Shown here: positions 1-51,806 of the stretch, in pieces
How the letters are laid out: each line of letters opens with the position of its first letter
Numbering within the stretch: the first letter of the stretch is position 1
NCBI RefSeq assembly: GCF_028275115.1
Contig: NZ_JAQCNH010000041.1
Span: 1 to 64,000 of the forward strand
DNA: 64,000 nt
Direction: 5' to 3'
DNA from: Halorientalis sp.
Lineage (GTDB): Archaea > Halobacteriota > Halobacteria > Halobacteriales > Haloarculaceae
Notes under the pieces: model-generated
Databases searched by the model: none
Seen by the model: the letters and a program-made list of their open reading frames with translations, nothing else
Told to the model about the DNA's origin: nothing
Made by a program: the position numbers and the translations under genes

Positions 1-1102
1 CCTGGCGGCGGACACCTACACGCACGGTATCTCCACCACCAACGATACCGAAACGGCACAGATCACGCTGAACCCGGAGACGGTGCAGAACGGCACGGTC
101 GCCGGGACCGTGACGAACGCGAGCGGCGACGCGCTGCCTGGGACGACAGTTTTGGCCGGCGGTGAGACGACGACTACGGCGGCCGACGGCAGCTACTCGC
201 TGTCACTCGAGCCTGGCAGCTACCAGGTGACGGCCAACGCCGACGGCTTCCAGTCCGTGAGCAAGTCGGCGACGGTGACGGAAAGCAACACTACGACGGT
301 GGACTTCTCGCTGACCGCCGAGAACGACGATGGCGGTGACGGTATCGTTGACCTCGACGGTCCGACAGAGTTCACGGGTTACGTACTCGGTGATGAGAGT
401 TACCTGCACACCGGGACTGAGGACAACGACCGGCCGCTCACGTACTCACGCTGCCGTGACGGGCAGCCCGACCCGGCCGAACAGGACCCGGGCTTCCTGC
501 CGACAAATGACTGTATCACCGTCCGGGGGACGGCCTACCCCTCGAACAACTCCTGGGTCGGTGACCTGAACATCACGCCCGTGACAGGAATTATCAACGA
601 CACCCAGGAAGAGAACTTCGAGAACATCTACTTCAATGCCGACTTCTCGACGGTCGACGGGGCCCAGGGAACGTTTGACACCCAGACCGGTGAAACGTCG
701 TTGGAGACCACCGTTGCGATCGACGTCTCCATCTGGCCAGTCGGTCCCACCATCTTCGGCTTCAATTCGCCAGCACAGAACCCCTACTCTAGCCGGACCA
801 ACCTGCTGACCGAGGACACCTGCGAGATTCCGAACACGCAGATCGTGGCGTCCACCGAAAAGAGCTACACGACCGCCTCACCGTTCCCTAGTACCGACAC
901 TGTCTCCGGTGAGCGACTGAACCGGAGTCTCTCCGGGAAGGTCGTGACGGACGACTTCTCGGTCGAAAGTGCCACGAGCTGCGGGAGCTACTTCGGCGTA
1001 AACCTGACCGAACAGGTCAACATCGAACAGGGCATTCCCGCACCCAGTGGTGAGAACGAACTGGCTTACGACATCGAACTCAATCTGCAGAACGGCAGCT
1101 AA
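1..1102 (+). CDS. Secreted surface protein with carboxypeptidase-regulatory-like domain (5' end outside window)
   Basis: The reading frame is open from base 2 to the stop at 1102, so the gene begins upstream of the window; the first possible internal start is GTG at 83. Just downstream of base 83 the protein shows a carboxypeptidase-regulatory-like (Ig-type) fold, with GTVAGTVTNASGDALPG and DGSYSLSLEPGSYQVTA, which in this family packs as a small extracellular beta-sandwich. An acidic linker (ENDDGGDG) leads into a roughly 240-residue beta-rich domain that I do not recognise, with several Cys that could form disulfides. There are no membrane segments in the visible part and no C-terminal sorting tail. 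The Thr/Asn-rich acidic composition is typical of exported haloarchaeal proteins. It lies directly upstream of the DUF6230/DUF6114 cluster and may belong to it (inference). Confidence 0.8.
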   Translation, partial: LAADTYTHGISTTNDTETAQITLNPETVQNGTVAGTVTNASGDALPGTTVLAGGETTTTAADGSYSLSLEPGSYQVTANADGFQSVSKSATVTESNTTTVDFSLTAENDDGGDGIVDLDGPTEFTGYVLGDESYLHTGTEDNDRPLTYSRCRDGQPDPAEQDPGFLPTNDCITVRGTAYPSNNSWVGDLNITPVTGIINDTQEENFENIYFNADFSTVDGAQGTFDTQTGETSLETTVAIDVSIWPVGPTIFGFNSPAQNPYSSRTNLLTEDTCEIPNTQIVASTEKSYTTASPFPSTDTVSGERLNRSLSGKVVTDDFSVESATSCGSYFGVNLTEQVNIEQGIPAPSGENELAYDIELNLQNGS

Positions 1103-1603: not shown

Positions 1604-2362
1604 ATGTACGATAAAAGCATACTCGCAAAGAGTACGGGTGCATCGCTTGGGGTGGTCGCAATTGTCGGCCTGCTTTTCCTCAGCACTGGCACCGCATTCG
1701 CGACGCCGGTCGCAGGTATCGGTGGATTCACAATCGAAGCCAACGAAATTACTGGTGACAACCTGATCCTGTACCCCGGTACTTCAGAGGCAGAGAACTC
1801 AACTGGCATCAATCCGGACGCCCAGAACGAACCGGGCGCGCCGGACTACCGTGACCAGTATCCGGTCGGTATCGTCGAACTGACGAACACCGAAATTAGG
1901 GGGCTGGAGCTAACGAAGGTGTTCGAGCTCGGGGAGTACTCGAAGGTGACCGATGCCTCGCCCGCAATCATCCCCGGGAACGCTCGGATCAAGATTCTCT
2001 CAAGCGGCCCGCCTGTGACGACCAATTCCATCCTCATCAAGACCCCGCAGATCGCCGCGACCAACGCGACGTTCTCGGGACTCCAGATCAAGGAGAACCA
2101 GGTCGAGGACCCAGGTGACATTACCAGCTGGCTCGAACTCCGCACCCAGGAAAACGCCAACAGCCCGATTCCGGACGACGGCGCACCGGTCCAGTACGAC
2201 ACCAACTACAACTACACCGGTGGCTCTAGTCCCGGTCTGCTCCTGGAGCGGCCGTTCATCCGTGCGACCTACCTCGCCACGGACTCGATTACGATTCCGA
2301 ACCTCCGCCTCGAGGTCCAGTACGACCCCGACGGAGACGAGAACTACGAGTTCGCCAGCTAA
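1604..2362 (+). CDS. DUF6230-type secreted protein
   Basis: 252 residues. A hydrophobic N-terminal segment (about 10-32, LGVVAIVGLLFLSTGTAFA) ends in an A-T-P stretch and looks like a signal peptide or anchor. The mature part follows the order I recall for DUF6230 proteins of Streptomyces: GGFTIEANEITGDNLILYPG, then VELTNTEIRGLELTK, ARIKILSSG, AATNATFSGLQI and a final ATYLATDSITIPNLRLEVQYD. These read as a repetitive beta sheet with no catalytic motif. ATG at 1604 was chosen because two paralogues in this window (3138, 21184) also begin M-Y-D/N just before the hydrophobic segment; in-frame upstream codons look non-coding. A DUF6114-type gene follows 82 bases downstream, the pairing known from actinobacteria. 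Biochemical function is unknown; a surface location is inferred. Confidence 0.8.
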   Translation: MYDKSILAKSTGASLGVVAIVGLLFLSTGTAFATPVAGIGGFTIEANEITGDNLILYPGTSEAENSTGINPDAQNEPGAPDYRDQYPVGIVELTNTEIRGLELTKVFELGEYSKVTDASPAIIPGNARIKILSSGPPVTTNSILIKTPQIAATNATFSGLQIKENQVEDPGDITSWLELRTQENANSPIPDDGAPVQYDTNYNYTGGSSPGLLLERPFIRATYLATDSITIPNLRLEVQYDPDGDENYEFAS

Positions 2363-2443
2363 CGACAGCCAACTAATCAACTACTCTTTTATGATACAGC
2401 AGTCCCGAAATTTTAGTGCGATACCACGAAAGAGATAGAAACA

Positions 2444-2938
2444 ATGTCTGTTCGAACAAAACTCTGGCACACAGTCCCAGGTCCGATCCGTCGCCGTATC
2501 GGCGACCGCCTTACTCGGTTCAAGCAGTGGCGGCAGGGCCGGCCGTTCATGGGCGCGCTTCTGCTGATGATTGGTGGCCTAATCATCGGCTGGGTCCCGA
2601 TTCAGTTCGCGACCGAACTCGCGATTATCGGTGGCTCGTTCACAGTCATCGGGCTCGTCTTCGCGGTTATGGTATTCCTGGCCGGTGCCTTCGTGATGGC
2701 TCGGCCGGAGATGTCGACGATATTCGGCGTCATTGGGATCGCACTCTCGATTCTCTCGCTCATCGGTGCACTGGGCGGGATGTTCGTCGGGATGCTCGTC
2801 GGAATCGCCGGTGGCAACCTCTGTATTGCCTGGCGCCACCCCGACCCGGACCACGGGTCCACTGCCAGCACCGGTACCGGCACCTCGGACGCGGGTGCCA
2901 GCGAGGACGTCCAGTTCAGTTGGCAGGGCGACCAGTAA
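2444..2938 (+). CDS. DUF6114-type four-helix membrane protein
   Basis: 164 residues. A basic amphipathic N-terminus (RFKQWRQGRPFMGALLLMIGG) leads into four hydrophobic segments at about 35-55, 62-85, 90-107 and 110-128. The last ends in the family hallmark GALGGMFVGMLVGIAGGNLCIAW. The QGRPFMGALLL motif, the overall length and the closing G-G-x-L-x-x-A-W signature match what I recall of DUF6114 proteins, which sit beside DUF6230 genes in Streptomyces. The C-terminal 30 residues are acidic and Ser/Gly-rich and probably soluble. It follows the DUF6230 gene by 82 bases on the same strand. Role unknown; a membrane partner or anchor for the secreted neighbour is inferred. Confidence 0.8.
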   Translation: MSVRTKLWHTVPGPIRRRIGDRLTRFKQWRQGRPFMGALLLMIGGLIIGWVPIQFATELAIIGGSFTVIGLVFAVMVFLAGAFVMARPEMSTIFGVIGIALSILSLIGALGGMFVGMLVGIAGGNLCIAWRHPDPDHGSTASTGTGTSDAGASEDVQFSWQGDQ

Positions 2939-3137
2939 ACGTGTCCGGCCCGCCAGTGCTGTTGCTCTGACAGTCCTGCCGGCGGCGATATTCATTGCCG
3001 GCGGTATATCAATGCCCGTCAATATCCGGGGTAAGGTTCAGATTGGACTCTCGTATTGGACATATCAACGCGCGTTTGAGCGGGCGAGGGGGTTGGGGAC
3101 TGCCCGTGGGACGGCACACAACGAGCGACTGTTCACT

Positions 3138-5681
3138 ATGTACAATCGGAAACGCATCGCGCGGGGGGCTGGGACCGCCATCGCGACATGGGCACTGATC
3201 GGACTACTGGTAATGTCGACCGGCGTCGCGTACGCGCTGCCGCTGGCCGGTGTGGGCGGATTCAATGTCACTGCGTCTGAAATCACTGCGGACGACTTGG
3301 TGTTGTACCCCGGTGTCGGGAACACCGACTCGGAGGACAACTTCCCACAGACGGTGGTTCAGCTATCGAACACGGACATCCAGCAGTTCGCACTGACCAA
3401 GGACCTCGACCTGGGGTCGGTTCCGATGTTTCCGCTCCCGGGAACATTGCGGATAAAGTTCCTGTCGCCGGGTGGGACCGACGGCGGGAACGTGCTGGTG
3501 AAATCCACCGCCCTCGGTGCTGACCAGGCGACGTTCAACGGCTTCCTAACCAACGATACGAACGCGTCCGACGCACGCGGTCGCTGGAGCATCAGGTCGG
3601 ACGGCCCAGTCACGCTCCAGGGGACCGACCGTAGTGGAGTCCGAATCCGGGCACACTACCTGGCGACCGACCGTATCTCTATCACGAATCTCCGATTCTT
3701 CGCCTGTTACGATGCCGACGACGACGGCACGTTCGAGTGGGGGCCGTGCAGCGCCGACACGAGTTCCGGCGGCGGGAGCGGCAACGCGGCCCCGACAGCC
3801 GACGCTGACGCCAACTCGACGACGGTCGGTGTCGGTGACACAGTCTCGTTCAACGGGTCCGGGTCGAACGACTCGGACGGGTCGATCGTGGCCTACGAGT
3901 GGTCGTTCGGTGACGGGACGTCCGCTACGGGGCAGCAGGCCGAGCACGTCTACGACGAACCGGGTGCCTACACCGCACGGCTGACAGTGACCGACGACGA
4001 CGGCGCGACGACGATCGAACCGGTGACGGTCGTCGTCGAGAGCAACGAACCGCCGATGCCCAGTCCGACCGCCTCCTCGACCACGGTCGAGTCGGGACAG
4101 CCTATCACCTTCGACGGATCGGGATCGAGCGACCTGGACGGGTCGATCACGCTCTACCAGTGGGACTTCGGCGACGGGACGACCGCGGCGGGCCAGCAGG
4201 TCACACACACCTACACCGAGTCTGGCAGCTACGCCGCGACGCTGACGGTGACCGACGACGACGGCGCGACGGCCTCGAGTTCAGTGAGCATCACCGTCCA
4301 GAACAGCTCTACTCCCGACTCGCTGGTCGCCAACGCGTCTGGGAGTCCCAGCCAGGTGACGGTCGGCGAGTCCGTCACGCTCGACGGCTCGGGGTCCTCC
4401 GGCACTAACAGCACGATCACGTCCTACGAGTGGGACTTCACCAGTGATGGGACGGTCGACGCGACCGGTCAGCAGGTCACCACCGCGTACAGTAGCGGTG
4501 GCGAAAAGACGGCGACGCTGACGGTGACCGACGACGACGGCGACACGGCAACTGACACCGTCACCACGGCTGTCACGGTCGACACCAACGACGCGCCGAC
4601 GGCGAACGTGTCAGCGAACCCTACGACCGTAGACGTCAACGAGGTAGTCGCGTTCGACGGGGCCGGGTCGAACGACTCGGACGGATCGATCGTGGACTAC
4701 GAGTGGGACTTCGATAGCGACGGAACGGCCGAAGTCACCGGTCAGCCACGGGCTACGTACGCGTACAGTTCCCCCGGCAGCTACGTGGCGACGCTGACGG
4801 TGACCGACGACGACGGGGCGACCGCCAGCACGGACATCACGGTCACGGTCGGCGCCAACGACGCGCCGACGGCGAGCGCGTCGGCGAACGCTACGACCGT
4901 GGAAGTTGGTGAGCCGGTTTCGCTCGACGGGTCGGGGTCGGGCGACCCGGACGGATCGGTCGTGGCCTACGAGTGGGACGTCGACGGCGACGGGACGGAC
5001 GACGCGACCGGTCAGCAGGTCGACACCAGCTTCGCCTCGGCTGGTGAGAAGACGGTGACGCTGACGGTGACCGACAACGATGGTGCGACCGCTACAACGA
5101 CTGTCACGGTCACGGTCGACACCAACGACGCGCCGACGGCGAGCGCGTCGGCGAACGCTACGACCGTGGAAGTTGGTGAGCCGGTTTCGCTCGACGGGTC
5201 GACGTCGGGCGACTCGGACGGGTCCATCACGACTTACGAGTGGGACGTCGACGGTGACGGGACGGTCGACGCGACCGGCCAGCGGGTCGACACCAACTTC
5301 GCCTCGGCTGGTGAGAAGACGGTGACGCTGACGGTGACCGACGACGACGGGGCGACCGCTAGCACGAACGTCTCGCTCACAGTCGACACCAACGACGCGC
5401 CGACGGCGAGCGCGTCGGCCAGTCCCGACCCGGTCGACCCCGACGAGACCGTCAGCCTCGACGGGTCGGCGTCGAGCGACCCGGACGGGTCCATCACGAC
5501 TTACGAGTGGGACGTCGACGGTGACGGGACGGTCGACGCAACCGGCCAGCAGGTCGACACCAGTTTCTCCTCGTCCGGCGACAAGATGGTGACGCTGACG
5601 GTGACCGACGACGACGGGGCGACCGCCAGCACGGACGTCACGGTGACCGTCAACGAGTGCTTCTTCGGGTTCTGCTTCTGA
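3138..5681 (+). CDS. DUF6230 domain protein with seven PKD domains
   Basis: 847 residues from ATG 3138. Residues 1-38 are a signal or anchor segment, and about 38-205 are a DUF6230 domain (GGFNVTASEITADDLVLYPG, VQLSNTDIQQFALTKDLDL, ADQATFNGFL, AHYLATDRISITNLRFF). A Ser/Gly linker follows, then seven consecutive PKD repeats of about 85-90 residues with the hallmark Y-E-W-D/S-F-G-D-G and LTVTDDDGAT cores. PKD domains are extracellular Ig-like spacers or adhesion modules. Repeats 5 and 6 are almost identical in DNA, suggesting recent duplication. The chain ends abruptly in NECFFGFCF, with two Cys and no sorting tail. An earlier in-frame start at 2733 would overlap the previous gene and is rejected. 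A stalk-like surface protein is the best reading; ligand unknown. Confidence 0.85.
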   Translation: MYNRKRIARGAGTAIATWALIGLLVMSTGVAYALPLAGVGGFNVTASEITADDLVLYPGVGNTDSEDNFPQTVVQLSNTDIQQFALTKDLDLGSVPMFPLPGTLRIKFLSPGGTDGGNVLVKSTALGADQATFNGFLTNDTNASDARGRWSIRSDGPVTLQGTDRSGVRIRAHYLATDRISITNLRFFACYDADDDGTFEWGPCSADTSSGGGSGNAAPTADADANSTTVGVGDTVSFNGSGSNDSDGSIVAYEWSFGDGTSATGQQAEHVYDEPGAYTARLTVTDDDGATTIEPVTVVVESNEPPMPSPTASSTTVESGQPITFDGSGSSDLDGSITLYQWDFGDGTTAAGQQVTHTYTESGSYAATLTVTDDDGATASSSVSITVQNSSTPDSLVANASGSPSQVTVGESVTLDGSGSSGTNSTITSYEWDFTSDGTVDATGQQVTTAYSSGGEKTATLTVTDDDGDTATDTVTTAVTVDTNDAPTANVSANPTTVDVNEVVAFDGAGSNDSDGSIVDYEWDFDSDGTAEVTGQPRATYAYSSPGSYVATLTVTDDDGATASTDITVTVGANDAPTASASANATTVEVGEPVSLDGSGSGDPDGSVVAYEWDVDGDGTDDATGQQVDTSFASAGEKTVTLTVTDNDGATATTTVTVTVDTNDAPTASASANATTVEVGEPVSLDGSTSGDSDGSITTYEWDVDGDGTVDATGQRVDTNFASAGEKTVTLTVTDDDGATASTNVSLTVDTNDAPTASASASPDPVDPDETVSLDGSASSDPDGSITTYEWDVDGDGTVDATGQQVDTSFSSSGDKMVTLTVTDDDGATASTDVTVTVNECFFGFCF

Positions 5682-5739
5682 GTTCGCCGCCACACATCGT
5701 CGAAAGACAAAAGCGGATTCGGAGTGCAGTTGCGCTCGC

Positions 5740-6414
5740 ATGGTAACGTCGTCGGGAGACGGGTCGTCGGTTCGGGACTGGCTGACTGACCCACGGGGTG
5801 AGTTCCGTCGCTGGCGACAGCCGCGACCGATGCTCGGGAGTGCACTGTTGCTCGTCGGGAGCGGGGTCATCGGCTGGGTTCCGATCCAGTTCGCCGCCGA
5901 GTTGCTGTTCGTCGGTGGCGCGTTCACGGTCGTCGGGCTGTTTTTCGCCTCACTCGTCGCGTTCTGTGGACTCGCCACCCTCACCAGGCCCGAATTCGCA
6001 TCGGTCTTTGGCGTGTTCGGCATCGCCTTCGCCACGCTGTCGCTCGTCGGGGCGCTCGGTGGCTTCCTGGTCGGCATGGCAATCGCAACCGCCGGCGGCG
6101 TCCTCTGTTACGCCTGGGAACCGCCGACGGAGGCCGGTATCGAGGTGAAGACGGTGGCCGAGGCGTCGGAGTTCATTTGGGGTGGCACCTCGGAGTTCAT
6201 CTGGGGCGGCACCTCGGGGTTCATCTGGGGGAAAACCTCCGAGTTCATCTGGCAGACCGACGACGAGAGCGACGGCGACAACGACGACGAGAAAGCGAAC
6301 GGTCTCGGCCTCGGGTTCGACATCGGTGAGGCGGACGACGCGTCGGTTGCCGACGCCGCCGACGCAGACGACGACATTGAGACCGGCGACCTCGACGACC
6401 GGTTCAAGTTTTAG
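5740..6414 (+). CDS. DUF6114-type membrane protein with FIWG octapeptide repeats
   Basis: 224 residues. The N-terminal half repeats the DUF6114 layout: FRRWRQPRPMLGSALLLVGSG, four hydrophobic segments (about 33-50, 55-80, 88-105, 106-124) and GALGGFLVGMAIATAGGVLCYAW. It is closely similar to the protein at 2444-2938 (both have IGWVPIQFA.EL). Residues about 143-172 then hold four tandem octapeptides of the form S-E/G-F-I-W-G-x-T, unlike anything in its paralogues, followed by a highly acidic D/E-rich tail ending DDRFKF. ATG 5740 lies 58 bases after the PKD gene. The aromatic repeats could form a beta-hairpin stack or an interaction motif (inference). Confidence 0.78.
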   Translation: MVTSSGDGSSVRDWLTDPRGEFRRWRQPRPMLGSALLLVGSGVIGWVPIQFAAELLFVGGAFTVVGLFFASLVAFCGLATLTRPEFASVFGVFGIAFATLSLVGALGGFLVGMAIATAGGVLCYAWEPPTEAGIEVKTVAEASEFIWGGTSEFIWGGTSGFIWGKTSEFIWQTDDESDGDNDDEKANGLGLGFDIGEADDASVADAADADDDIETGDLDDRFKF

Positions 6415-6449
6415 GAAACTGTTTTCACGCCGTCACTGCCAGAGCGCCT

Positions 6450-6860
6450 ATGGGCGACGGTCGTACCAGTGATCGGTTCGCGACGGCGCGCGAGCGGCTG
6501 GTCGCGTTCGACGGCTGGCGTCGGCAGCGGCCCTTTTCCGGCGGGACGCTGTTGATCGTCGCCGGATTCCTGACGGCGTTCTTGCCCGCGGTCTACGACG
6601 AGTTCCTCCTCTTTGTCGCCGGTTCGTTCACCGGTTCGGCGATCCTGTTCGGTGGGTCGCTCGTCGTCTGTGGCCTGCTCGTGCTTGCCGTCCCGTCGCT
6701 GTCGTCGGTGCTCGGTGGGCTCGGGATTCTTCTGGCGACGCTGTCGCTGTTCGGTGCGCTCGGGGGGTTCGTTATCGGGTCCGTGCTAGGCGGCATCGGT
6801 GGCATTCTCGCGTTCGCTTGGACGGCTCCCGACGGGGGTGAATCCGAGGACGAGCCGTGA
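6450..6860 (+). CDS. DUF6114-type membrane protein (short)
   Basis: 136 residues, 35 bases after the preceding DUF6114-type gene. It has the same fold pattern without extra domains: WRRQRPFSGGTLLIVAGFL at the start, four hydrophobic segments, and FGALGGFVIGSVLGGIGGILAFAW before a short acidic tail. This is the third DUF6114-type protein in 4.5 kb and completes the run of five same-strand genes starting at 1604. It is not identical to the others, so it is probably a diverged paralogue with its own partner. Confidence 0.75.
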   Translation: MGDGRTSDRFATARERLVAFDGWRRQRPFSGGTLLIVAGFLTAFLPAVYDEFLLFVAGSFTGSAILFGGSLVVCGLLVLAVPSLSSVLGGLGILLATLSLFGALGGFVIGSVLGGIGGILAFAWTAPDGGESEDEP

Positions 6861-21183: not shown

Positions 21184-21846
21184 ATGTACGATACCAAACG
21201 GCTAGCCAGCGGCGTTGGCGTGTTGCTCACGTTGTGGGCGCTCGTCGGCCTGTTGATACTGAGCACCGGGGTGGGCGTTTCAGTGCCGCTGAGCAGCTCT
21301 GGGGGATTCAACGTATCGGCCGACTACCTGACAGCGTCCGAGGCGACCGTCGTGCCGGCGGAGACGGAGATCGTCACGCCATCGGTGCTGTTCGAGGTGG
21401 AGCGAAGCTACATCCGCAATCTGAACCTGCAGAAGACGCTCAACGTCAGCGACGTCCCGGGACTCACGGGACGGTTACAGGTACAGGTCCGGAGCGAAGA
21501 AGCGACGGCACGTGGTGTCGCGTTCAAAACCGACCGAATTACCGCCCAGACTGCGACTTGGCGGGGGTTCGTCCTCGACGAGCGAACGGGACCGGAAATC
21601 TTCGACCGGTTCAAGGCCTACGCCGGGCCGGAACCGAACCAGGCGCCCAACACGAACGACCCACTCCAGATCGAGGGCAGCGATCCGGGTGCGGTCAGAC
21701 CGAGTGACGGCGACCAGGCGTTCGAGTTGCGCGGGGCGAAGATTACGACCTCGACGCTCTCTGCGGACCAACTCCAGCTCTCGGACCTCTCCCTGAGAGT
21801 GCGGTACGACTTCGACAGTGATGGTGAGTTCGAATATGGCGCGTGA
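21184..21846 (+). CDS. DUF6230-type secreted protein (second cluster)
   Basis: 220 residues from ATG 21184 (MYDTKRLASG, the same opening as the paralogue at 1604). The hydrophobic segment at 10-33 (GVLLTLWALVGLLILSTGVGVSV) is a signal or anchor. The mature part keeps the family order: GGFNVSADYLTASEATVVPA, VERSYIRNLNLQKTLNV, GRLQVQVRSEE, TAQTATWRGFVL and STLSADQLQLSDLSLRVRYD. It is more diverged than the other two copies. Its end overlaps the next gene by 11 bases. Confidence 0.75.
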   Translation: MYDTKRLASGVGVLLTLWALVGLLILSTGVGVSVPLSSSGGFNVSADYLTASEATVVPAETEIVTPSVLFEVERSYIRNLNLQKTLNVSDVPGLTGRLQVQVRSEEATARGVAFKTDRITAQTATWRGFVLDERTGPEIFDRFKAYAGPEPNQAPNTNDPLQIEGSDPGAVRPSDGDQAFELRGAKITTSTLSADQLQLSDLSLRVRYDFDSDGEFEYGA

Positions 21847-23068
21847 AGAGACGACCGACGGCGACCTGTCGTCCGACCACGTCGCCGGACTCCAGGCCCG
21901 GTTCGACCGGTGGACCGCGACCAGACCGGCGCTCGGTGCGACGCTGCTGACAGTTGGCAGCGCCGTCCTCGCCTGGCGTGTCCTCGCACAGCTGTCGTCG
22001 GTGCCGCTGGCTCGCATCACGCCAGTCGGGTTCGCCGGCACGGTCGCGCCGTTCGTCGCCGTCGTCCTCGGACTGTCCGTCCTCGCCAGACCGGAGACGG
22101 CCCGGACTGCCGGTGGCGTCGGCTTCGGCCTGGTCGGGTTCACGTTCGCCGGCCTCCTGCTCTCGGGCGTCCCGTTCGCCCACCCAGAACTGGTCTTCAC
22201 CGGGTTCGTGATCGGCGGGGTCGGTGCGGTGGTCTGTCTCGCCCGGGACCACCAGCGCACCGTTCGTATCGAGCGTGGACCGATGTTCCGTGCCGGTCGC
22301 GCCGCGCTGGTCTGCGGGCTCGTCGTTGCACTCGTCTTTACCGCCGCCCCGGCTGTCTCCGGCGAACCGTTCCCTGCACAGTCGGACACGATAGACGGAT
22401 TCGTCGTCAGCCAGTCGTCGCTCAACGCCGGCACGTACAGCTACCAGACCGACTGCGACACCGACCCCGGCTTCGCAATCGGCGGCGAAGACTGTCTCGA
22501 TATCACCGTCGACAGCACGAGCCAGGAGAACATCAACCGGGCCGCCCGACAGCAGCTCGACAGTACGAAGGTCGCGGACGTGGAACTCGACGAGTTCCTC
22601 ATCTACGAGAACCTCTTTACGGACCTGCGTGGCGGCCGGAACGTTTTCTTCGAGCTGTCTGCCTCGCAGGCCGTCGCCTCGAGTGAGACGGACGACGGCC
22701 GCGCTATCGACGTGTACGTTTCGGAGTTCCGGTCGGAGAAACTGACCGCCCGGCTGGACCTGATCAAGTTCCCCGGCACGCCCGGGATTCCGGCCGACAA
22801 CATCGCTTACTGGACGTGTACGCCGCAGAACGACAGCGGCTTCGGGACGATCAACGACATCCGGCTCGGGCTGGACACCAACCCGCGGCTGACCAGCGGC
22901 CGCGACGTGTCGCTGCTGGCCCACCAGCTCGGTAGCTCGGAGACGGTGCTGACGGAGTTCAAGCTCAAGATCGGCGCCGAACTGGGGAACAACAGCGGTG
23001 TTCGCGAACCGATCCCGGCCGACGGCGGGCCGGCGGAGGCACAGACTGCGCCCGACAACTGCCTGTGA
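21836..23068 (+). CDS. DUF6114-like membrane domain fused to an extracellular domain
   Basis: 410 residues from ATG 21836; ATG 21821 and GTG 21818 are alternatives. The first 130 residues follow the DUF6114 layout (FDRWTATRPALGATLLTVGSAVLAW, then hydrophobic segments closing in GFVIGGVGAVVCLAR). A fifth hydrophobic segment (about residues 158-180, ALVCGLVVALVFTAAPAVS) is followed by a roughly 230-residue domain that should lie outside the cell and contains four or more Cys (TDCDTDPG, EDCLDI, WTCTPQ, DNCL). I do not recognise that domain. The fusion directly couples the membrane module to a secreted module and so supports the idea that DUF6114 and the secreted proteins work together. Confidence 0.72.
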   Translation: MAREETTDGDLSSDHVAGLQARFDRWTATRPALGATLLTVGSAVLAWRVLAQLSSVPLARITPVGFAGTVAPFVAVVLGLSVLARPETARTAGGVGFGLVGFTFAGLLLSGVPFAHPELVFTGFVIGGVGAVVCLARDHQRTVRIERGPMFRAGRAALVCGLVVALVFTAAPAVSGEPFPAQSDTIDGFVVSQSSLNAGTYSYQTDCDTDPGFAIGGEDCLDITVDSTSQENINRAARQQLDSTKVADVELDEFLIYENLFTDLRGGRNVFFELSASQAVASSETDDGRAIDVYVSEFRSEKLTARLDLIKFPGTPGIPADNIAYWTCTPQNDSGFGTINDIRLGLDTNPRLTSGRDVSLLAHQLGSSETVLTEFKLKIGAELGNNSGVREPIPADGGPAEAQTAPDNCL

Positions 23069-23529
23069 CGCCCGATAGCTCGGAATTCGATGGCTCCGAC
23101 GGCGTTTTGACCGCTACGGACGACGATGCGGACGTGGAGACGATCACGTTCGCCGAGTGGCGCCGCGCCCGGCCGTTCGGCGGCGCACTCCTGCTCGTGG
23201 TCGGCGGGTTGCTCGTCGCCTGGCCGTCGGTTCAGGTCGTCCTGAGTACACGACCGTTCGACGGATATCCGATCTCCACTCTCGGGACCGTCGTCGGCGC
23301 GGGCATCGTCTTCGTCGGTGTGGCGGTACTGTTGCGGCCCGAACGGGCACGGGTACTCGGGATAGCGGGGCTCGTGCTCGCGTCGGTGTCTTTCCTCGTC
23401 GCGTTCGGTGGCTACCTCGTCGGGATGGTCGTCGCGAGCGCCGGCGGCGTCCTCTGTTTCGCCTGGCGACCGACAGCGGAGTACGAACGGCTGGTTCTGG
23501 ACGAAGAGAGCGGAGAAGACGAACAGTAG
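23065..23529 (+). CDS. DUF6114-type membrane protein (second cluster)
   Basis: 154 residues, GTG start overlapping the upstream stop by four bases (GTGA), so translationally coupled. After an acidic 25-residue N-terminus comes WRRARPFGGALLLVVGGLL, four hydrophobic segments and AFGGYLVGMVVASAGGVLCFAW, the full DUF6114-type pattern, then an acidic tail. The three genes 21184-23529 overlap end to end and form one operon. Confidence 0.78.
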   Translation: MTPDSSEFDGSDGVLTATDDDADVETITFAEWRRARPFGGALLLVVGGLLVAWPSVQVVLSTRPFDGYPISTLGTVVGAGIVFVGVAVLLRPERARVLGIAGLVLASVSFLVAFGGYLVGMVVASAGGVLCFAWRPTAEYERLVLDEESGEDEQ

Positions 23530-40586: not shown

Positions 40587-43340
40587 TCAGTCCTCGGCAG
40601 TCGAGTCCGTGTCGGCGGGCGGTTCCGTCGTCTCGTCTTCGGTGTCACCCGATTCGCCCGCGTCTGTCGGGTCCGCGCCGTCGTCGGTGGCCGAGTCGCC
40701 GTTCGCGCTGGCCGTCGCGCCGCCGTTTGCCGCGGCGTCGGCTTCCGAGACCGAGTCGGTGTCCAGTAGCGACTCAGTGACCGACGCGTCCCCGCTGGAC
40801 GCGACCACGTCGGGGTTTGGCGTCCCGGTTGCGGGCTCCGGGCCGAGCGTCGGCGAGGGACCGCCGCCGCCCGTGGTCGCCGTCGCGCCGGCGTCGTAAC
40901 CGACGAGGCGGTCCCACAGCACCAGCGCCGCCGGGAGAACGAAGATCGACGTGAGGAACGCGTAGACGATGCTCACGGCGGTCAGGATGCCGAACTGACC
41001 GATAGCGGGGAACAGCGCCAGGCCCAGCACGCCGATCCCGAAGACCGTGGTGAGCATGCTGCCGAGCAGCGCCCCGCCGGTGCCTCGGACCGTTCGGTCC
41101 AGCGCCGTCACGAGGTCGTACTCCCGGCGTTCGTCGGCAAAGCGGTGGGTCACGTGGACGGAGTAGTCGATTCCCAGTCCGATAGTGATCGCCAGCATCG
41201 TCGCCGTGATGGCGTTGAACGGGATTCCCGCGAACCGCATCGTCGCCGCGACCAGTGTGACCGTCGTGATGATCGGAACCACGTTCGCGATGCCAAGCGT
41301 CGCCCGGCCCTCGATGACGTAGTAGACCAGCAGCAGGAACAGCGTCGCGCCGAGTAAGGCGAGCGCCAGGCTCTCGATAGCCGAGGTGAAAATCACGTCC
41401 GAAACCGCCTGGAAGACGACCGTCTCGCCGGTCGCGACGGTGTGGAACCGGAAGCTGCCGGCCATCTCGCGGGCATCGGCGGTGATCTCGCTCTGTTCAG
41501 CACCGGACTCGACCGTGTAGACGACGCGACTGGCCCGACGGTCCTCGGTCATGTAGTCGAGCGCCTGCCCGCGGGCCGGCGAGGACAGCAACGCGTCGTA
41601 GACATCGCCGAGGTTCCGGTCGGGAACGCCGTTCCCGTCGACGTCGTTACGGGCGACCAGAGCGGCGAACGACTCGTTCTGCTCGGCGCGGTTCTGAATC
41701 ACCGTGACGATGCTCGTCGAGTCGGCGCGGCGCTCGTCGTCCGTGATGACGGTGTCGGGCGGGTCCGAACTGGCCCGGTGGATGTCTTCCAGAGCCGTCG
41801 GCCTCTCTAACCGCCCCTCGACGTACATCGTCACCGAGTCCGACTGTGTGGAGTCGAACGTGTCTTCGAGGAAGTTCGTCGTCTCTGTGACGGTGTACTC
41901 GTTGGGCTTGAACGGTTCGGGTAACTCCATCACCCAGTCGGGGTTGTCCTCTGGCGGGAGGAAGTCCTCCTGTGCGAAGGAGGTGTTGACGCCGGTCGCG
42001 TAGTAGCCTGCACCGACGGTCCCGAGCAGGACGAGAACCAGGAAGATGGCGGGCGCGCGGTTGGCGACGACGACCCCGACGCGGAGAACGCTTCCCAGCG
42101 CGGAGTCTTCCGACCCCACCGGAGTCTGGCTGAACGTCGGGATCGGGATCCTGTCGCGCCTCCGGTCGAGCCACACCTTCGCCGCCGGGAGGAAGATTCC
42201 GAAGATCAGAAAGGTAAAGACGATTCCGATGCTCGCGACGACCCCGAAGTCCCGAATCGGCGGCAGGTCGCTGACGAGGTTGGCGGCGAAGCCGATGACG
42301 GTCGTTCCGGTGACGATGAAGAAGGCCACGAGCAACTGGTCGGTCGTGACCCGCATCGACTCCTCGATGGAGTAGTCTTGGACTCGCTCCTCGCGGTACC
42401 GGTTGATGGCGTGAATGCCGAAGTCGATCCCGACCGCCAGTAACAGCGGCGGCACGGCGATCAGCATCTGGCTGAACGGGATGCCGGCCAGGCCCATGAA
42501 CCCGAAGGTCCAGACGATGCCCATCACCAGTGCGACCACGCCCAGCAGCAGGTCGAGCAGGTCCCGGTACGCGATGATCAGGAAAAACGTGATGAAGATC
42601 ACCGCGGCCGGCACGACGATCAACAGCGAGTCGATAATAACGTTCGAGAACTCGCCGGCCAGCACGCCCGAGCCGAACACCTGAATGTTACCGCCAGTGG
42701 TCGAAACCGCGAAGATCGATTGCTCTTGGATCGGCGTCAGTGGGCTTGACCCGCCCTGTCCCGACCCCGACGACAGCCCCGCGGGCACCTCGTGGCTCAC
42801 CGTGCCGATAGTGGCTGTCGCGGTCGCGGACCCGCGGTTGAAATCGTTACTCAGGAGGCTCGTAAACTGCGGGCTTCGCCCGGCCGCCTGCGCGACCGCG
42901 CGGTCGATTTCGCCGGCGGTCGCATCCTCGACGACATCGATTTGTGCCGAAAGCGTCGTCGCAGACGGGTCGAGCTGTGTGGCGACGATACGGGCCGCAC
43001 TCGCCGTCGAGGTCACGCGCAGGGAGTCACGCTGTTCGAGACGGTCCTGTGCACGGAGCATCGCCAGCAGCGACTCCTTGTCGAGGACGTTCCGGTTTTG
43101 CTGAATCAGCGACGTGCTCCCCGTGTCGGCAGCGAACGACGGAGAGAACTTCTCGTTGACCTGGGTGAACGCCTCCTCGGCCGGGAGCCCGGTCGTGAAC
43201 TGCGAGGTTCCGGCGGAGGTACTAACGCTGCCCAGCCCCACCGTGAACAGGGCAGTCACGACGAGGAAGACGACGATAATCCGGCCGGGCCGTTCGACGA
43301 TAGTCTCGTCGACCCGGTCGATGACGCGCTGGTAGTCCAT
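40587..43340 (-). CDS. RND/MMPL-family exporter
   Basis: 917 residues from ATG 43340. After an N-terminal helix (RIIVVFLVVTALFTVGLG) comes a large extracytoplasmic loop, a six-helix bundle with GIDFGIHAINRYREER, a second helix and loop, and a second bundle with GLGIDYSVHVTHRFADERR, the duplicated MMPL/sterol-sensing-type layout. The last about 100 residues are a disordered acidic Thr/Ser/Asp tail. Its start lies one base after the stop of the CARDB-type gene, so the two are one operon, likely controlled by the divergent TetR. The substrate may be a lipid or hydrophobic compound (inference). Confidence 0.9.
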   Translation of the reverse strand: MDYQRVIDRVDETIVERPGRIIVVFLVVTALFTVGLGSVSTSAGTSQFTTGLPAEEAFTQVNEKFSPSFAADTGSTSLIQQNRNVLDKESLLAMLRAQDRLEQRDSLRVTSTASAARIVATQLDPSATTLSAQIDVVEDATAGEIDRAVAQAAGRSPQFTSLLSNDFNRGSATATATIGTVSHEVPAGLSSGSGQGGSSPLTPIQEQSIFAVSTTGGNIQVFGSGVLAGEFSNVIIDSLLIVVPAAVIFITFFLIIAYRDLLDLLLGVVALVMGIVWTFGFMGLAGIPFSQMLIAVPPLLLAVGIDFGIHAINRYREERVQDYSIEESMRVTTDQLLVAFFIVTGTTVIGFAANLVSDLPPIRDFGVVASIGIVFTFLIFGIFLPAAKVWLDRRRDRIPIPTFSQTPVGSEDSALGSVLRVGVVVANRAPAIFLVLVLLGTVGAGYYATGVNTSFAQEDFLPPEDNPDWVMELPEPFKPNEYTVTETTNFLEDTFDSTQSDSVTMYVEGRLERPTALEDIHRASSDPPDTVITDDERRADSTSIVTVIQNRAEQNESFAALVARNDVDGNGVPDRNLGDVYDALLSSPARGQALDYMTEDRRASRVVYTVESGAEQSEITADAREMAGSFRFHTVATGETVVFQAVSDVIFTSAIESLALALLGATLFLLLVYYVIEGRATLGIANVVPIITTVTLVAATMRFAGIPFNAITATMLAITIGLGIDYSVHVTHRFADERREYDLVTALDRTVRGTGGALLGSMLTTVFGIGVLGLALFPAIGQFGILTAVSIVYAFLTSIFVLPAALVLWDRLVGYDAGATATTGGGGPSPTLGPEPATGTPNPDVVASSGDASVTESLLDTDSVSEADAAANGGATASANGDSATDDGADPTDAGESGDTEDETTEPPADTDSTAED

Positions 43341-43341
43341 G

Positions 43342-44931
43342 TTAGCGGAAGCGCATGTAACCGCCGATGGCGACGACGACGACGACACCGACGCCGATCA
43401 GCGGGAGCGGGAAGCCACCGCCGCCGCTGCTCTCTTCGACGTCGATGGGGAGGCGGTAGCGGTCCGAGAGCAGCGTGTCGCCGTCCGCGTCGTCGTACTC
43501 GAAGTCAACCGACAGCGGGTACTGTTTGGGCAACGCGTCGCTGGCTCCGACGCTGAAACCGATCGTCGTCGACTCGCCGGGCCCGAGTTCGTCGATGTAC
43601 GCCTCGGAGTCTGAGACGCTGATCGGGCTGTCTGCGAACATCTTCGCCGAGATAGCCGACAGTGTCTCGTTGGCCGTGTTGGTGACCTCGACACCGATGG
43701 TGGTCGAGCCGCCGTCCTCCACCGAACCGTTGACGATGCTGACGGCGAACGCGTCCGAGCCGGGTGCCACGTCCACCCGGGCCGGGAGGTCGTCGCTCGT
43801 GCGCGAGTCGCCCTCGGTGTCGCGGTAGTCGGCGACGAAGACGAACTGCTTGGGGCCGCTCGCCGCGGCGTCGTTGACCTCTATCTCCATGTCGAAGTCG
43901 GCCGCCTGCCCCGGTTCGAGCGTGCCGACGGAGTACTCCCGGTCGGTGGGGTTGAGATTCTGTAACTGGCCGGTGAGTCGGACGACCACGTCACGGGCCA
44001 CCAAGTCACCGCCGTTCCGGACGGTGCCCGAAATGGTGCCGTCCTCGCCGACCCGGAGCGAGGGCTCGACGTTCGACAGCTCGAAATTCGTCTCCGGCAG
44101 CGGGGTCACGCCCAGCGAGCGGCTCTTGGACTGCCGGGTGACACCGTCGCTGTCGTCGTAGCTAGCGGTCACGCGGAAGGCGTAGCGCTGTTGTTCGGCG
44201 TTGTCCGACGCCGTGACGCGGTACTCGATGGTCTTTCGCTCGCCAGGCTCCCACTCACCGGCGTACCGGGTCCCGGAACTCGACTGACCGAACGTGAGGT
44301 CGCTGTTCAGCGACTCCAACTCGACACTCGCGTCGCTGGCCGTCTCGGTGCCCGTGTTCTCCATGATGACACCGACCGTCCCGGTCGATCCGATCTGCAC
44401 GTCGGACTCGGTGTCGACGATCTCGAAACGAGCGCTGTCCTCGACCCGGAGCGTCACCTGGAACGTGTCCGTCTCGCTCTGTTCGTTGTAACTTCGCAGA
44501 CCCGCGTCGGACTGGGTAATCTTCGAGTAGTACTCGTACTCGACTTCCGCCGTTAGGGTGTAAATCCCGGGCTCTGCGTTCTCGGCTACGCTGATGTCGA
44601 ACGGCACCTGAGTCGAGGACTCGCCGGACAACTGTCCGACGGTCCGCTGGTTGGTTTCGATTGTCACCGGTGCCGACCCGGAGCGCAGGTCGACCGTCAT
44701 TCCGCGGGCCTTGGTGACCTGTGACTCCAGCCCACTGGCGGACCCGTAGTCGACTTCGCCCTGGTTGTTGACCTGCAGATTCAGCGTTCTGTCCTCGCCC
44801 TGCGTGACACGGCTGTCGTCGAGAGACGCCGATAGCTCCGGGTTACCAGACACGACGAACCCGCCGAGCGCCGGCATCGGGACTAAAAACAATGCAACGA
44901 CTGCAAGAGCTGCGAGTTGTGATCCTCTCAT
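43342..44931 (-). CDS. CARDB/COG1361-type surface protein
   Basis: 529 residues. Signal peptide 1-23 (LAALAVVALFLVPMPALG), then about four Ig-like COG1361/CARDB repeats with the recurring phrases GTVGVIMENTGTETASDASVEL, GTISGTVRNGGDLVARDVVVRL and TTIGVEVTNTANETLSAISAKM, and a C-terminal helix (PLPLIGVGVVVVVAIGGYMRFR) anchoring it in the membrane. Such proteins regularly precede MMPL transporters in archaea and may act as an extracellular accessory. A TetR-type site (44935-44952) lies four bases ahead of its ATG. Confidence 0.87.
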   Translation of the reverse strand: MRGSQLAALAVVALFLVPMPALGGFVVSGNPELSASLDDSRVTQGEDRTLNLQVNNQGEVDYGSASGLESQVTKARGMTVDLRSGSAPVTIETNQRTVGQLSGESSTQVPFDISVAENAEPGIYTLTAEVEYEYYSKITQSDAGLRSYNEQSETDTFQVTLRVEDSARFEIVDTESDVQIGSTGTVGVIMENTGTETASDASVELESLNSDLTFGQSSSGTRYAGEWEPGERKTIEYRVTASDNAEQQRYAFRVTASYDDSDGVTRQSKSRSLGVTPLPETNFELSNVEPSLRVGEDGTISGTVRNGGDLVARDVVVRLTGQLQNLNPTDREYSVGTLEPGQAADFDMEIEVNDAAASGPKQFVFVADYRDTEGDSRTSDDLPARVDVAPGSDAFAVSIVNGSVEDGGSTTIGVEVTNTANETLSAISAKMFADSPISVSDSEAYIDELGPGESTTIGFSVGASDALPKQYPLSVDFEYDDADGDTLLSDRYRLPIDVEESSGGGGFPLPLIGVGVVVVVAIGGYMRFR

Positions 44932-49577: not shown

Positions 49578-49725
49578 ACCCGACTGTGACCGGTGTCCGG
49601 TTGTAAGTGTTTCGCCTCGACTCTAATAAGAACACCCGGGAACGAACGGGCAGTTAAATCGGTTCTGATACGGAAGAGAACGCTGACAGGGTGATACACG
49701 TTATACTGTGTCACTGGGGGAAGCG

Positions 49726-50676
49726 ATGACGAACGAGACCACTCACGAGACCGAACAGAATAGGGACCGGGGACTGAACCGACGAAGCGTGCTGAAAGCC
49801 ACGTCGGCGGCAGCGGTCGGGACGGTTGGCCTCGGCGCGGCGACCGGAACGGCCACGGCAGAGGAGGCCGAAGAGGAACTTCTCGGGAACTGTCTGGGTG
49901 ACGTGCCACAGGCACCCGACGACGCGCCCGTCGTCGACCTGACGGGCGACGGACCGACCACCCGGGGCGCGGTGCCATCGGGCGAAAACGAGGTGCTATT
50001 TTACATCCACGGCTGGCTCGAAGACGCCACGGGCGGCGGCGAGAACCAAGGACAGGCGCTCGCGGCGGCGCTTGAGGGCCAGGGATACGGCGTCTCCGTC
50101 GTCTCCGTTCTCTGGGAGTCGAACACGCTCAATTGGTGGGGTGCCAAGGACGCCGCCGATGCGACCGGGACGGACTTCGCCGGCTGGCTCGACAGCTACA
50201 TGACAGACAATCCGGACACGACGGCCCGGGTCGTCGGCCACTCGCTCGGTGGCCGCGCCGCCTACTCGATGCTCGACGCCCTCGAGGGCACGGTCGCGTC
50301 GGTGTCGGCCGTCGGGGCCGCGAACGACCCCGACACCGTCTGTGAAGACGGTCGGTACGGCGACGGTATCGCCAGTTCGGCCGACGCGGTGTACAACTTC
50401 TACTCGGGCAACGACGACATCGTCTGTGGCGCCTACAAACTCCTCGAGATGACCGAAGCCGTCGGCGGCGTCGGTGCAGAGTGTGACGGCGGCTGGTTCG
50501 ACGAGGGGTCGACTCCGGACACCTACACGGACGTAGACGTGAGCGAATCCGTGCTGAACCACTGCGACTACTTCCGGCCCGACGTGGGCTGTGTCCCGCA
50601 GATGGTCGACCGCATCGACGGCGGCGGGACCGATCCGGCAGGTGACGACGGCGACGACGGCGACGGCTGGTGGTGA
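49726..50676 (+). CDS. Tat-secreted alpha/beta hydrolase (lipase-like), copy 1
   Basis: 316 residues. The twin-arginine signal LNRRSVLKATSAAAVGTVGLG (residues about 18-38) ends in A-T-A. VLFYIHGWLEDATGGG contains the oxyanion-type HGW, and VVGHSLGGRAAYSMLD holds the nucleophile Ser in GHSLGG. CDYFRPDVGC near the C-terminus places a conserved His (LNHCDYF) as likely catalytic base. Four or more Cys suggest disulfides. Family: secreted haloarchaeal esterase/lipase-like proteins. Ends in an Asp/Gly-rich tail. Confidence 0.87.
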   Translation: MTNETTHETEQNRDRGLNRRSVLKATSAAAVGTVGLGAATGTATAEEAEEELLGNCLGDVPQAPDDAPVVDLTGDGPTTRGAVPSGENEVLFYIHGWLEDATGGGENQGQALAAALEGQGYGVSVVSVLWESNTLNWWGAKDAADATGTDFAGWLDSYMTDNPDTTARVVGHSLGGRAAYSMLDALEGTVASVSAVGAANDPDTVCEDGRYGDGIASSADAVYNFYSGNDDIVCGAYKLLEMTEAVGGVGAECDGGWFDEGSTPDTYTDVDVSESVLNHCDYFRPDVGCVPQMVDRIDGGGTDPAGDDGDDGDGWW

Positions 50677-50858: not shown

Positions 50859-51806
50859 ATGGGACACACTTCGAAGGACGAACAGGGTACTGACGCGGAA
50901 TCGACGCGGAACGGAATCGACCGGCGGCGCGTGCTGCAGGGTGTGGCTGCGGGCACGGTCACCGTCGCCGGACTCTCGGTGACGAGCGGATCGGCGGTCG
51001 CACAGGGGGAGGACCGGCTGGACGGCAACTGTCCGGCGATTCCCTTCGGCGCGCCTGAGGACTTCCCGACGGTCGACCTGACGGGTGACTCGCCGACGGC
51101 GAGCAACGTCCCGGCGGGCCAGGAGGAAGTCGTGTTCTTCCTGCACGGCTGGCTGGAGGCGTTCACCGGTGGTGCGGTGAACCAGTCGGTAGCGCTGCAG
51201 GAAGCGCTCGCACAGAACGGCAAGGACGTGCCGGTCGTGGCGGCCAAGTGGCCGGCGAACTCGCCCAACTGGTTCGGCCAGAAAGACGTGTCCGAACAGG
51301 CGGGTGCGGACCTCGGCAGCTACCTCACAGATTACACCGACGCCAATCCGGACACGACGATCAGAGTCGTCGGCCACTCGCTGGGCGGCCGGGGTGTCTA
51401 CGACATGCTGGACTCGGCGCAGTACGACACCACCGTCCAGTCCGTCTCGGCGCTCGGTGCCGCGGTCAATCCGGTTACCGTCTGTGACGACGGCCGGTTC
51501 GGTGCCGCCATCGCCGACGGTGCCGAGGAAGTGTACAACTACCACTCCGAAGGCGACGACATCGTCTGCACGATATACGACATTCCCGAGGGCCCGTCCG
51601 GCGTGGGCTGTAGCGGGTCGGACTGTCCCACGGGCTTTTTCGGACTCGACGACGGTCAGCCCGACAACTACACCGACGTCGACGTCACGGGTACCGTCGA
51701 GAACCACTGTGACTACTTCCGGCCCGACGTGGGCTGTGTCGACTTGGTCGTGAACGACTGGAGCGACCCTGACGACGACGGTGGTTTCTTCGGCGGCCTG
51801 TTCTGA
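50859..51806 (+). CDS. Tat-secreted alpha/beta hydrolase (lipase-like), copy 2
   Basis: 315 residues from ATG 50859. Paralogue of the preceding gene with the same order: twin-arginine signal IDRRRVLQGVAAGTVTVAG, VVFFLHGWLEAFTGG, WPANSPNWFGQKD, RVVGHSLGGRGVYDMLD and VENHCDYFRPDVGC, ending DDDGGFFGGLF. The linkers differ, so the duplication is not recent. It has its own upstream region (about 180 bases). A Bat-type regulator gene is convergent downstream. Confidence 0.87.
   Translation: MGHTSKDEQGTDAESTRNGIDRRRVLQGVAAGTVTVAGLSVTSGSAVAQGEDRLDGNCPAIPFGAPEDFPTVDLTGDSPTASNVPAGQEEVVFFLHGWLEAFTGGAVNQSVALQEALAQNGKDVPVVAAKWPANSPNWFGQKDVSEQAGADLGSYLTDYTDANPDTTIRVVGHSLGGRGVYDMLDSAQYDTTVQSVSALGAAVNPVTVCDDGRFGAAIADGAEEVYNYHSEGDDIVCTIYDIPEGPSGVGCSGSDCPTGFFGLDDGQPDNYTDVDVTGTVENHCDYFRPDVGCVDLVVNDWSDPDDDGGFFGGLF

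Follow-up and report, generated by a model that had tools for sequence, protein, structure and literature searches.

The closest described relatives of the proteins considered here are P21 and P16 of Geobacillus thermoleovorans B23, which, in the passages of Kato et al. 2009 (PMC2676291) that deal with them, are induced by alkanes, the more strongly the longer the chain, and are recovered as membrane-associated proteins in the insoluble fraction, with the determined N-termini AFPLSGVGGFTISADLI (P21) and VPISGVGEFXVTFDKL (P16). Their orthologues GK2770 (P21) and GK3040 (P16) are termed (alkane-inducible) membrane transporters in the corresponding passages of Nithimethachoke et al. 2024 (PMC10867098), where database models of P21 and P16 are described as a large β-barrel with an N-terminal helix. 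The same passages place GK2771, an R2lox protein whose recombinant lysate degrades alkanes and which is reported as an alkane monooxygenase, in a cluster of alkane and β-oxidation genes; the names DUF6230 and DUF6114 are absent from the passages on the GK2770/GK2771 cluster. In the current analysis relatives of P21 and P16, which belong to the family DUF6230, have been identified together with membrane proteins of the family DUF6114 in a 64,000-nucleotide stretch of a Halorientalis sp. (contig C81 of the draft haloarchaeal genome G000, referred to below as the window), where they occupy two loci, A (1604-6860) and B (21184-23529).

We suggest that the two families form a cell-surface module for long-chain hydrocarbons or lipids, with DUF6230 outside and DUF6114 in the membrane. 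For the family as a whole we put the chances of this reading at about even, and somewhat lower for the archaeal loci. It is preferred because of the homology to P21 and P16, the R2lox neighbours of their genes, the fusion of DUF6114 to an acyl-CoA ligase, the co-occurrence of the two families even where their genes are unlinked, the enrichment of lipid and alkane genes in the neighbourhood, and the presence in the same genus of a described hydrocarbon degrader, Halorientalis hydrocarbonoclasticus (mentioned as such in PMC10867098).

The protein encoded at 1604-2362 matches a P21-type protein (L147:6075-6677) over nearly its whole length (BLASTP E 9e-22), the region 3138-3776 is likewise matched by BLASTP (Table 1), and a profile comparison of the window proteins with the P21-type proteins gives E 1.7e-27, all of these being single-comparison values. 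Where the mature N-termini of P21 and P16 align, the 1604-2362 protein reads TPVAGIGGFTIEANEI, a motif conserved in the alignment, and its own mature N-terminus is predicted, by homology to P21, to lie near it. The published P21 peptides are matched at 16/17, 16/16, 18/19 and 18/19 residues in L147 (genome G845) and at 16/17, 16/16, 19/19 and 18/19 in L148 (genome G922), and a second locus of G922 matches the P16 peptides P16-N (14/16) and P16-16 (12/18). Both the P21-type and the P16-type genes are adjoined by a DUF6114 gene, and the P21-type gene is preceded by a R2lox-like gene in L147 and L148.

The archaeal members thus share with P21 and P16 of Geobacillus the full-length family homology, the mature N-terminal motif and the adjoining DUF6114 gene. 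The differences are a multiplied set, a copy with seven PKD domains, the fusion of one DUF6114 protein to a secreted-type domain, and the lack of an alkane-degradation cluster beside the loci. As far as full-text searches of 5.39 million open papers reach, the pairing of the two families, the identity of P21 and P16 as DUF6230 proteins and the ligase fusion are not in print; the families are named in a single paper, which lists the promoter of a DUF6230 gene.

The sequence-only reading had assigned the membrane proteins of the window to DUF6114 and the secreted ones to DUF6230. With the Pfam cut-offs (27.9 bits for DUF6114, PF19609; 27.5 bits for DUF6230, PF19741) the former assignment stands for four membrane members and falls short for the fifth, 21836-23068, whose N-terminal part scores below the cut-off (Table 1). 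The latter stands by homology to proteins that pass PF19741 and fails by the Pfam model itself, since no window protein reaches its cut-off; 21184-21846 scores below it, 1604-2362 and 3138-5681 have no match, and a search of the whole genome G000 at E 1 gave no PF19741 match. The proteins that pass include the P21-type (L147, 40.7 bits) and P16-type (L135, 49.6 bits) proteins and same-genus orthologues in the Halorientalis salina genome G430 (34.8 and 32.0 bits). PF19741 is passed in four of eight genomes searched, namely H. salina, one Natrinema and two Bacillota. Relatives of the 1604-2362 protein have been found in 14 of 58 related genomes, representing five of 42 genera, and plasmid searches for further members returned Natronococcus only. 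A DUF6230-like protein with two PA14 stretches is encoded in genome G007 (L079, 3191-4852, minus strand).

The members of the two loci are listed in Table 1. All five genes proposed for locus A are intact open reading frames on the plus strand at the positions first given, and the count of seven PKD domains is correct. The census of three secreted proteins and five membrane proteins, divided between two loci, agrees in number, with the qualification that the membrane member 21836-23068 is itself fused to a secreted-type domain.

Table 1. Genes of the DUF6230/DUF6114 module in the two loci of the window
Feature	Position	Strand	Basis
Locus A: DUF6230-like secreted protein, 252 residues, N-terminal hydrophobic helix	1604..2362	+	BLASTP to P21-type protein
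Locus A: DUF6114 membrane protein, four predicted transmembrane-type helices	2444..2938	+	Pfam 89.3 bits; structure model; lysine plus arginine counts
Locus A: DUF6230-like secreted domain (about residues 1-205) followed by seven PKD domains	3138..5681	+	PKD_4, seven stretches; N-terminal domain against P21-type protein, E 1e-19
Locus A: DUF6114 membrane protein, long acidic C-terminal tail with four EFIWG-like repeats	5740..6414	+	Pfam 71.9 bits; sequence
Locus A: DUF6114 membrane protein	6450..6860	+	Pfam 77.2 bits
Locus B: DUF6230-like secreted protein	21184..21846	+	Pfam DUF6230 21.1 bits (below cut-off); profile A4, E 1.1e-54 (the sequence is itself a row of A4)
Locus B: natural fusion of N-terminal DUF6114, extra hydrophobic segment and secreted-type domain	21836..23068	+	Hidden Markov model A5, E 3e-11; Pfam 20.9 bits (below cut-off)
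Locus B: DUF6114 membrane protein	23065..23529	+	Pfam 75.9 bits

The content of locus A is found again in genome G003, with two DUF6230-like and three DUF6114 matches, and its first four genes are kept in G002; an extra DUF6230-like gene is present in locus A of H. salina and H. marina. In the tail of the 5740-6414 protein (plus strand) the sequence EFIWGGTS is nearly repeated four times, and related FIWQ/FVWQ tails occur in L048 and L049. Directly upstream of the locus a secreted protein with a carboxypeptidase-regulatory domain is encoded at 83-1102 (plus strand), cut by the contig start; a DUF6230 domain in it was considered and rejected (hhalign 0.3%). The corresponding position of G002 encodes two large CARDB-rich secreted proteins.

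The co-occurrence of the two families was analysed in two genome draws with the Pfam model of DUF6114 (E 1e-5) and the DUF6230-like profile A4 (E 1e-5 and 1e-4). Both families are found in the same six of 392 Halobacteriota genomes and in the same eight of 398 Bacillota genomes, the draws including the entry points of the search, G000 and the Bacillota centre G428; no genome among the 790 holds one family alone at these thresholds. Co-occurrence better than chance, which the sequence-only reading had called for, is therefore borne out. The hypergeometric values that ignore kinship (2e-13 for Halobacteriota, 7e-17 for Bacillota) are far too small, because the genomes are related, the six archaeal ones belonging to two genera. 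In G442, G528 and G617 both genes are kept though they lie about 0.9 to 1.2 megabases apart in contig coordinates. Genome G041, which has DUF6230-like genes, and 18 of the 41 genomes of a further search stand outside this two-family comparison.

Of the 36 DUF6114 domain hits in Bacillota, 33 have a DUF6230-like match at most 1.3 kb upstream; those that do not are L147, with a long DUF6114 gene, and the ligase fusions L073 and L101. Such a match is also present for 26 of 31 hits in the haloarchaeal set (three of these repeating a locus that was fetched twice) and for three of five in the window. Since the Bacillota loci were collected through DUF6114, this count describes the neighbours of DUF6114 and not those of DUF6230. 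A solo DUF6230-like gene, with no DUF6114 in the 15 kb examined and adjoining a conserved secreted protein, does occur in the genus (L164, also L176); in G002 a match of this type is divided between two frames.

The usual order in Bacillota is DUF6230, DUF6114 and a larger secreted protein. This third protein has been identified in 26 of 33 Bacillota loci by BLASTP with three query proteins, whose donors account for three of the 26, and pooled third proteins of archaea and bacteria are DUF6230-like (hhalign E 6.5e-10). A gene for a LuxR-type regulator is found in 26 of 35 clustered loci, mostly upstream and divergent; in L146-L148 it comes after the third gene and faces it. All four of the regulators scanned have a GerE domain and one has a GAF domain. 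Among archaeal loci a HTH_10 regulator adjoins the pair in L050 (Pfam match) and, by resemblance only, in L051, L054 and L055. In some Bacillota loci (L146-L149, L075, L073) the module is also accompanied by the gene of an ABC1/UbiB-type kinase, which was counted in 5 of 33 loci and 0 of 36 control stretches.

Natural fusions join DUF6114 to other domains. In G617 and G442 DUF6114 forms the N-terminus of proteins of 870 and 873 residues with AMP-binding domains of the long-chain acyl-CoA ligase type, and G528 has an open frame of similar length; the 2444-2938 protein shares 39% identity over 106 residues with such a fusion. In G007 DUF6114 (88.2 bits) is fused to a DUF6230-like domain (hhalign 88%, E 2.9e-6). 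The C-terminal domain of the 21836-23068 fusion resembles the third protein of the Bacillota locus L075 (hhalign E 2.3e-4, probability 44.6%; its score of 32.4 exceeds those of 30 shuffles, the highest of which was 16.7) and, weakly, the G007 fusion (hhalign 8.9%); neither the DUF6230 core (0.6%) nor the pool of third proteins (0.2%) is matched.

The mean number of lysine and arginine residues in 19 DUF6114 sequences is 7.0 at the N-terminus, 0.11 in loop 1, 1.05 in loop 2, 0 in loop 3 and 0.63 in the C-terminal stretch. By this charge distribution the N-terminus is inside. A cytoplasmic C-terminus is suggested by the number of helices together with the ligase fusion, the C-terminal charge being low. 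Both types of fusion are compatible with a single topology in which the ends of DUF6114 are cytoplasmic and the DUF6230-like domain is outside. The DUF6230/DUF6114 pair is a real, conserved system. Of the physical two-part system first proposed, a system conserved in archaea and Bacillota stands on co-occurrence, gene order and fusions, usually with three parts in Bacillota; the membrane protein may be in direct contact with the secreted one and may anchor or handle it. The alkane-inducible relatives, the third component, the fusion inside the window and the acyl-CoA ligase fusion elsewhere go beyond the sequence-only reading.

The counts of lipid and alkane metabolism genes cover 33 Bacillota loci, none longer than 16 kb, and 36 control stretches, whose coordinates were picked by hand in 17 of the same genomes. 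R2lox-like genes are found in six loci (one being a fragment at the edge of L058), zinc alcohol dehydrogenase in seven, SCP2 in five, and thiolase and acyl-CoA dehydrogenase in four each, against 0/36 controls in every case. At least two lipid or alkane families are present in 11 of 33 loci and 1 of 36 controls, and in 7 of 29 loci after removal of the four that donated queries. In L146 a 4Fe-4S ferredoxin, a pyridine nucleotide oxidoreductase and a cytochrome P450 are encoded between DUF6230 and the R2lox-like gene. We take this comparison as support and not as proof, because the queries were picked after the clusters had been seen, the loci are related, and 20 of the 33 loci contain none of the tested lipid enzyme families.

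The late choice of queries and the 20 loci devoid of such enzymes weigh against a module for hydrocarbons or lipids, as do the hand-picked control positions and a number of further observations. Aldehyde dehydrogenase and acyl-CoA ligase are not significantly enriched (4/33 against 2/36 each), and neither is P450 (1 against 0). The archaeal loci have no lipid-degradation cluster beside them. R2lox-like genes occur in all 15 haloarchaeal genome entries searched (G004 and G430 being one genome), and the seven such loci examined have no DUF6230 or DUF6114 match; G000 itself has five R2lox-like matches, on contigs C83, C100, C123 and C133 and none on C81, and among the open reading frames adjoining the window loci there is no R2lox, alcohol dehydrogenase or aldehyde dehydrogenase. 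A weak archaeal pointer towards lipids is a SCP2 protein (23.1 bits, cut-off 21.3) adjoining a multi-helix DUF6114 fusion of H. salina. In the passages found in the P21/P16 literature there is no report of binding or transport by any member, and according to the passage concerned the genes of P16 and P21 had yet to be disrupted successfully (PMC2676291).

The PKD and PA14 elaborations also fit adhesion, and they are one ground for the most serious alternative, a surface scaffold in which DUF6230 proteins would coat the cell or make it adhere and DUF6114 would anchor them, the alkane induction in Geobacillus being indirect and the module aiding the cell in sticking to oil droplets. Both are display or binding domains: the protein encoded after the first DUF6114 gene has seven PKD stretches in the window, six in H. 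marina and four in H. salina, to which the PA14 stretches of L079 are added. The CARDB-rich proteins preceding locus A in G002, the solo DUF6230-like gene and the large share of Bacillota loci devoid of the tested enzymes are equally in keeping with it. However, the ligase fusion and the R2lox neighbours suit metabolism better, and PKD domains are found here only in Halorientalis members. We regard the scaffold as a doubtful explanation for the family, and consider that in the archaeal loci a function in display or adhesion may have joined or displaced the handling of hydrocarbons or lipids.

The AlphaFold2 model of the 1604-2362 protein (predicted local distance difference test, pLDDT, 78.6) has an N-terminal helix and, at the level of secondary structure, a β-rich body; that of the 2444-2938 protein (pLDDT 77.7) has an N-terminal helix followed by four long helices. 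Sequence searches of the PDB gave no match up to E 1 for DUF6230 and a best E of 0.27 for DUF6114. SipW serves the TasA fibres as an assembly and maturation factor, and DUF6114 could by analogy be such a factor for the secreted protein, the module building an extracellular polymer. The conserved pairing and order, the conserved motif at the mature N-terminus and the co-occurrence would fit such a pair. Against this, the nine window proteins searched have no match to TasA or SipW families up to E 1 in Pfam or NCBIfam, neither structure model has a PDB match with E <=0.001, and such a role is hard to reconcile with a DUF6114 that is fused to a cytosolic ligase and encoded far from DUF6230, so that this explanation appears unlikely. 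That the DUF6230 proteins are secreted esterases is very improbable: Kato et al. do report, in the passage concerned, an N-terminal similarity of P21 and P16 to the 'cholesterol esterase' of S. lavendulae, but the whole-length similarity is negligible (E 5.7 and above 10; PMC2676291), and the columns invariant among 21 aligned members are G40, F42 and P87 only, with no Ser, His or Asp.

If the module does handle long-chain hydrocarbons or lipids, the DUF6230 protein would leave the cell, lose its signal sequence by cleavage and stay attached to the outside of the membrane; there its β-rich domain would bind or disperse long-chain alkanes or lipids. Its membrane partner would be the four-helix DUF6114 protein, both ends of which would face the cytoplasm and which would pass the molecule or a signal inward. 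In one bacterial lineage the ligase fused to DUF6114 would convert an imported fatty acid to acyl-CoA and so trap it. The set in Bacillota usually includes a third secreted protein of the DUF6230-like type. In Halorientalis the set is multiplied, one DUF6114 is fused to a secreted-type domain, and one copy has probably turned into a PKD-bearing surface protein. Wherever hydrocarbons are concerned, such a use by the archaeal proteins is suggested by their bacterial relatives.

To our knowledge, the uptake of long-chain alkanes and fatty acids in cells without an outer membrane, above all in archaea, is largely open. We tentatively put forward the more specific possibility that DUF6230, DUF6114 and the third protein constitute an undescribed import system for hydrophobic substrates in such cells of archaea and Bacillota, with DUF6114 as a conduit that can be coupled to acyl-CoA ligation, that is, vectorial acylation by one polypeptide. 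A comparison can be drawn with the vectorial acylation of the FadL/FadD type, which would be alike in coupling an uptake step to an acyl-CoA ligase, as the DUF6114 fusion suggests; the likeness is one of working only, no homology to FadL having been noticed (no search was aimed at it), and the cells with DUF6230 and DUF6114, unlike those with FadL, have no outer membrane. A role in hydrocarbon or lipid handling would give two domains of unknown function a testable task, associate P21 and P16 with a membrane partner as well as a third component, and supply named candidate genes in a genus that includes a known hydrocarbon degrader. The alkane induction of the bacterial relatives suggests a common, little-studied handling of oily molecules at the cell surface, and the ligase fusion makes the idea directly testable.

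A sixth DUF6114 of the genome is encoded on contig C114 (L174, 6661-8661, minus strand) as the C-terminus of a 666-residue multi-helix protein with relatives in L052 and L169; its internal repeats, and their resemblance to a small membrane protein (L015, 2738-3292) encoded close to the pair in G030, were noted by eye. A few kb from locus B the window encodes a cytochrome P450 (17286-18692, plus strand; Pfam E 1.9e-73), which is also kept in G003 (75% identity) and, by resemblance, in G002. Synteny within one genus being weak evidence, it is a weak pointer to a lipid role. Tandem proteins with Tat-like signals, recognised by eye, are encoded at 49723-50673 and 50859-51803 (both plus strand); the first has no Pfam match, and the second matches the α/β-hydrolase family DUF900 and, below the cut-off, cutinase. 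The window also encodes a MMPL-type transporter with a match to the sterol-sensing domain (40590-43388, minus strand).

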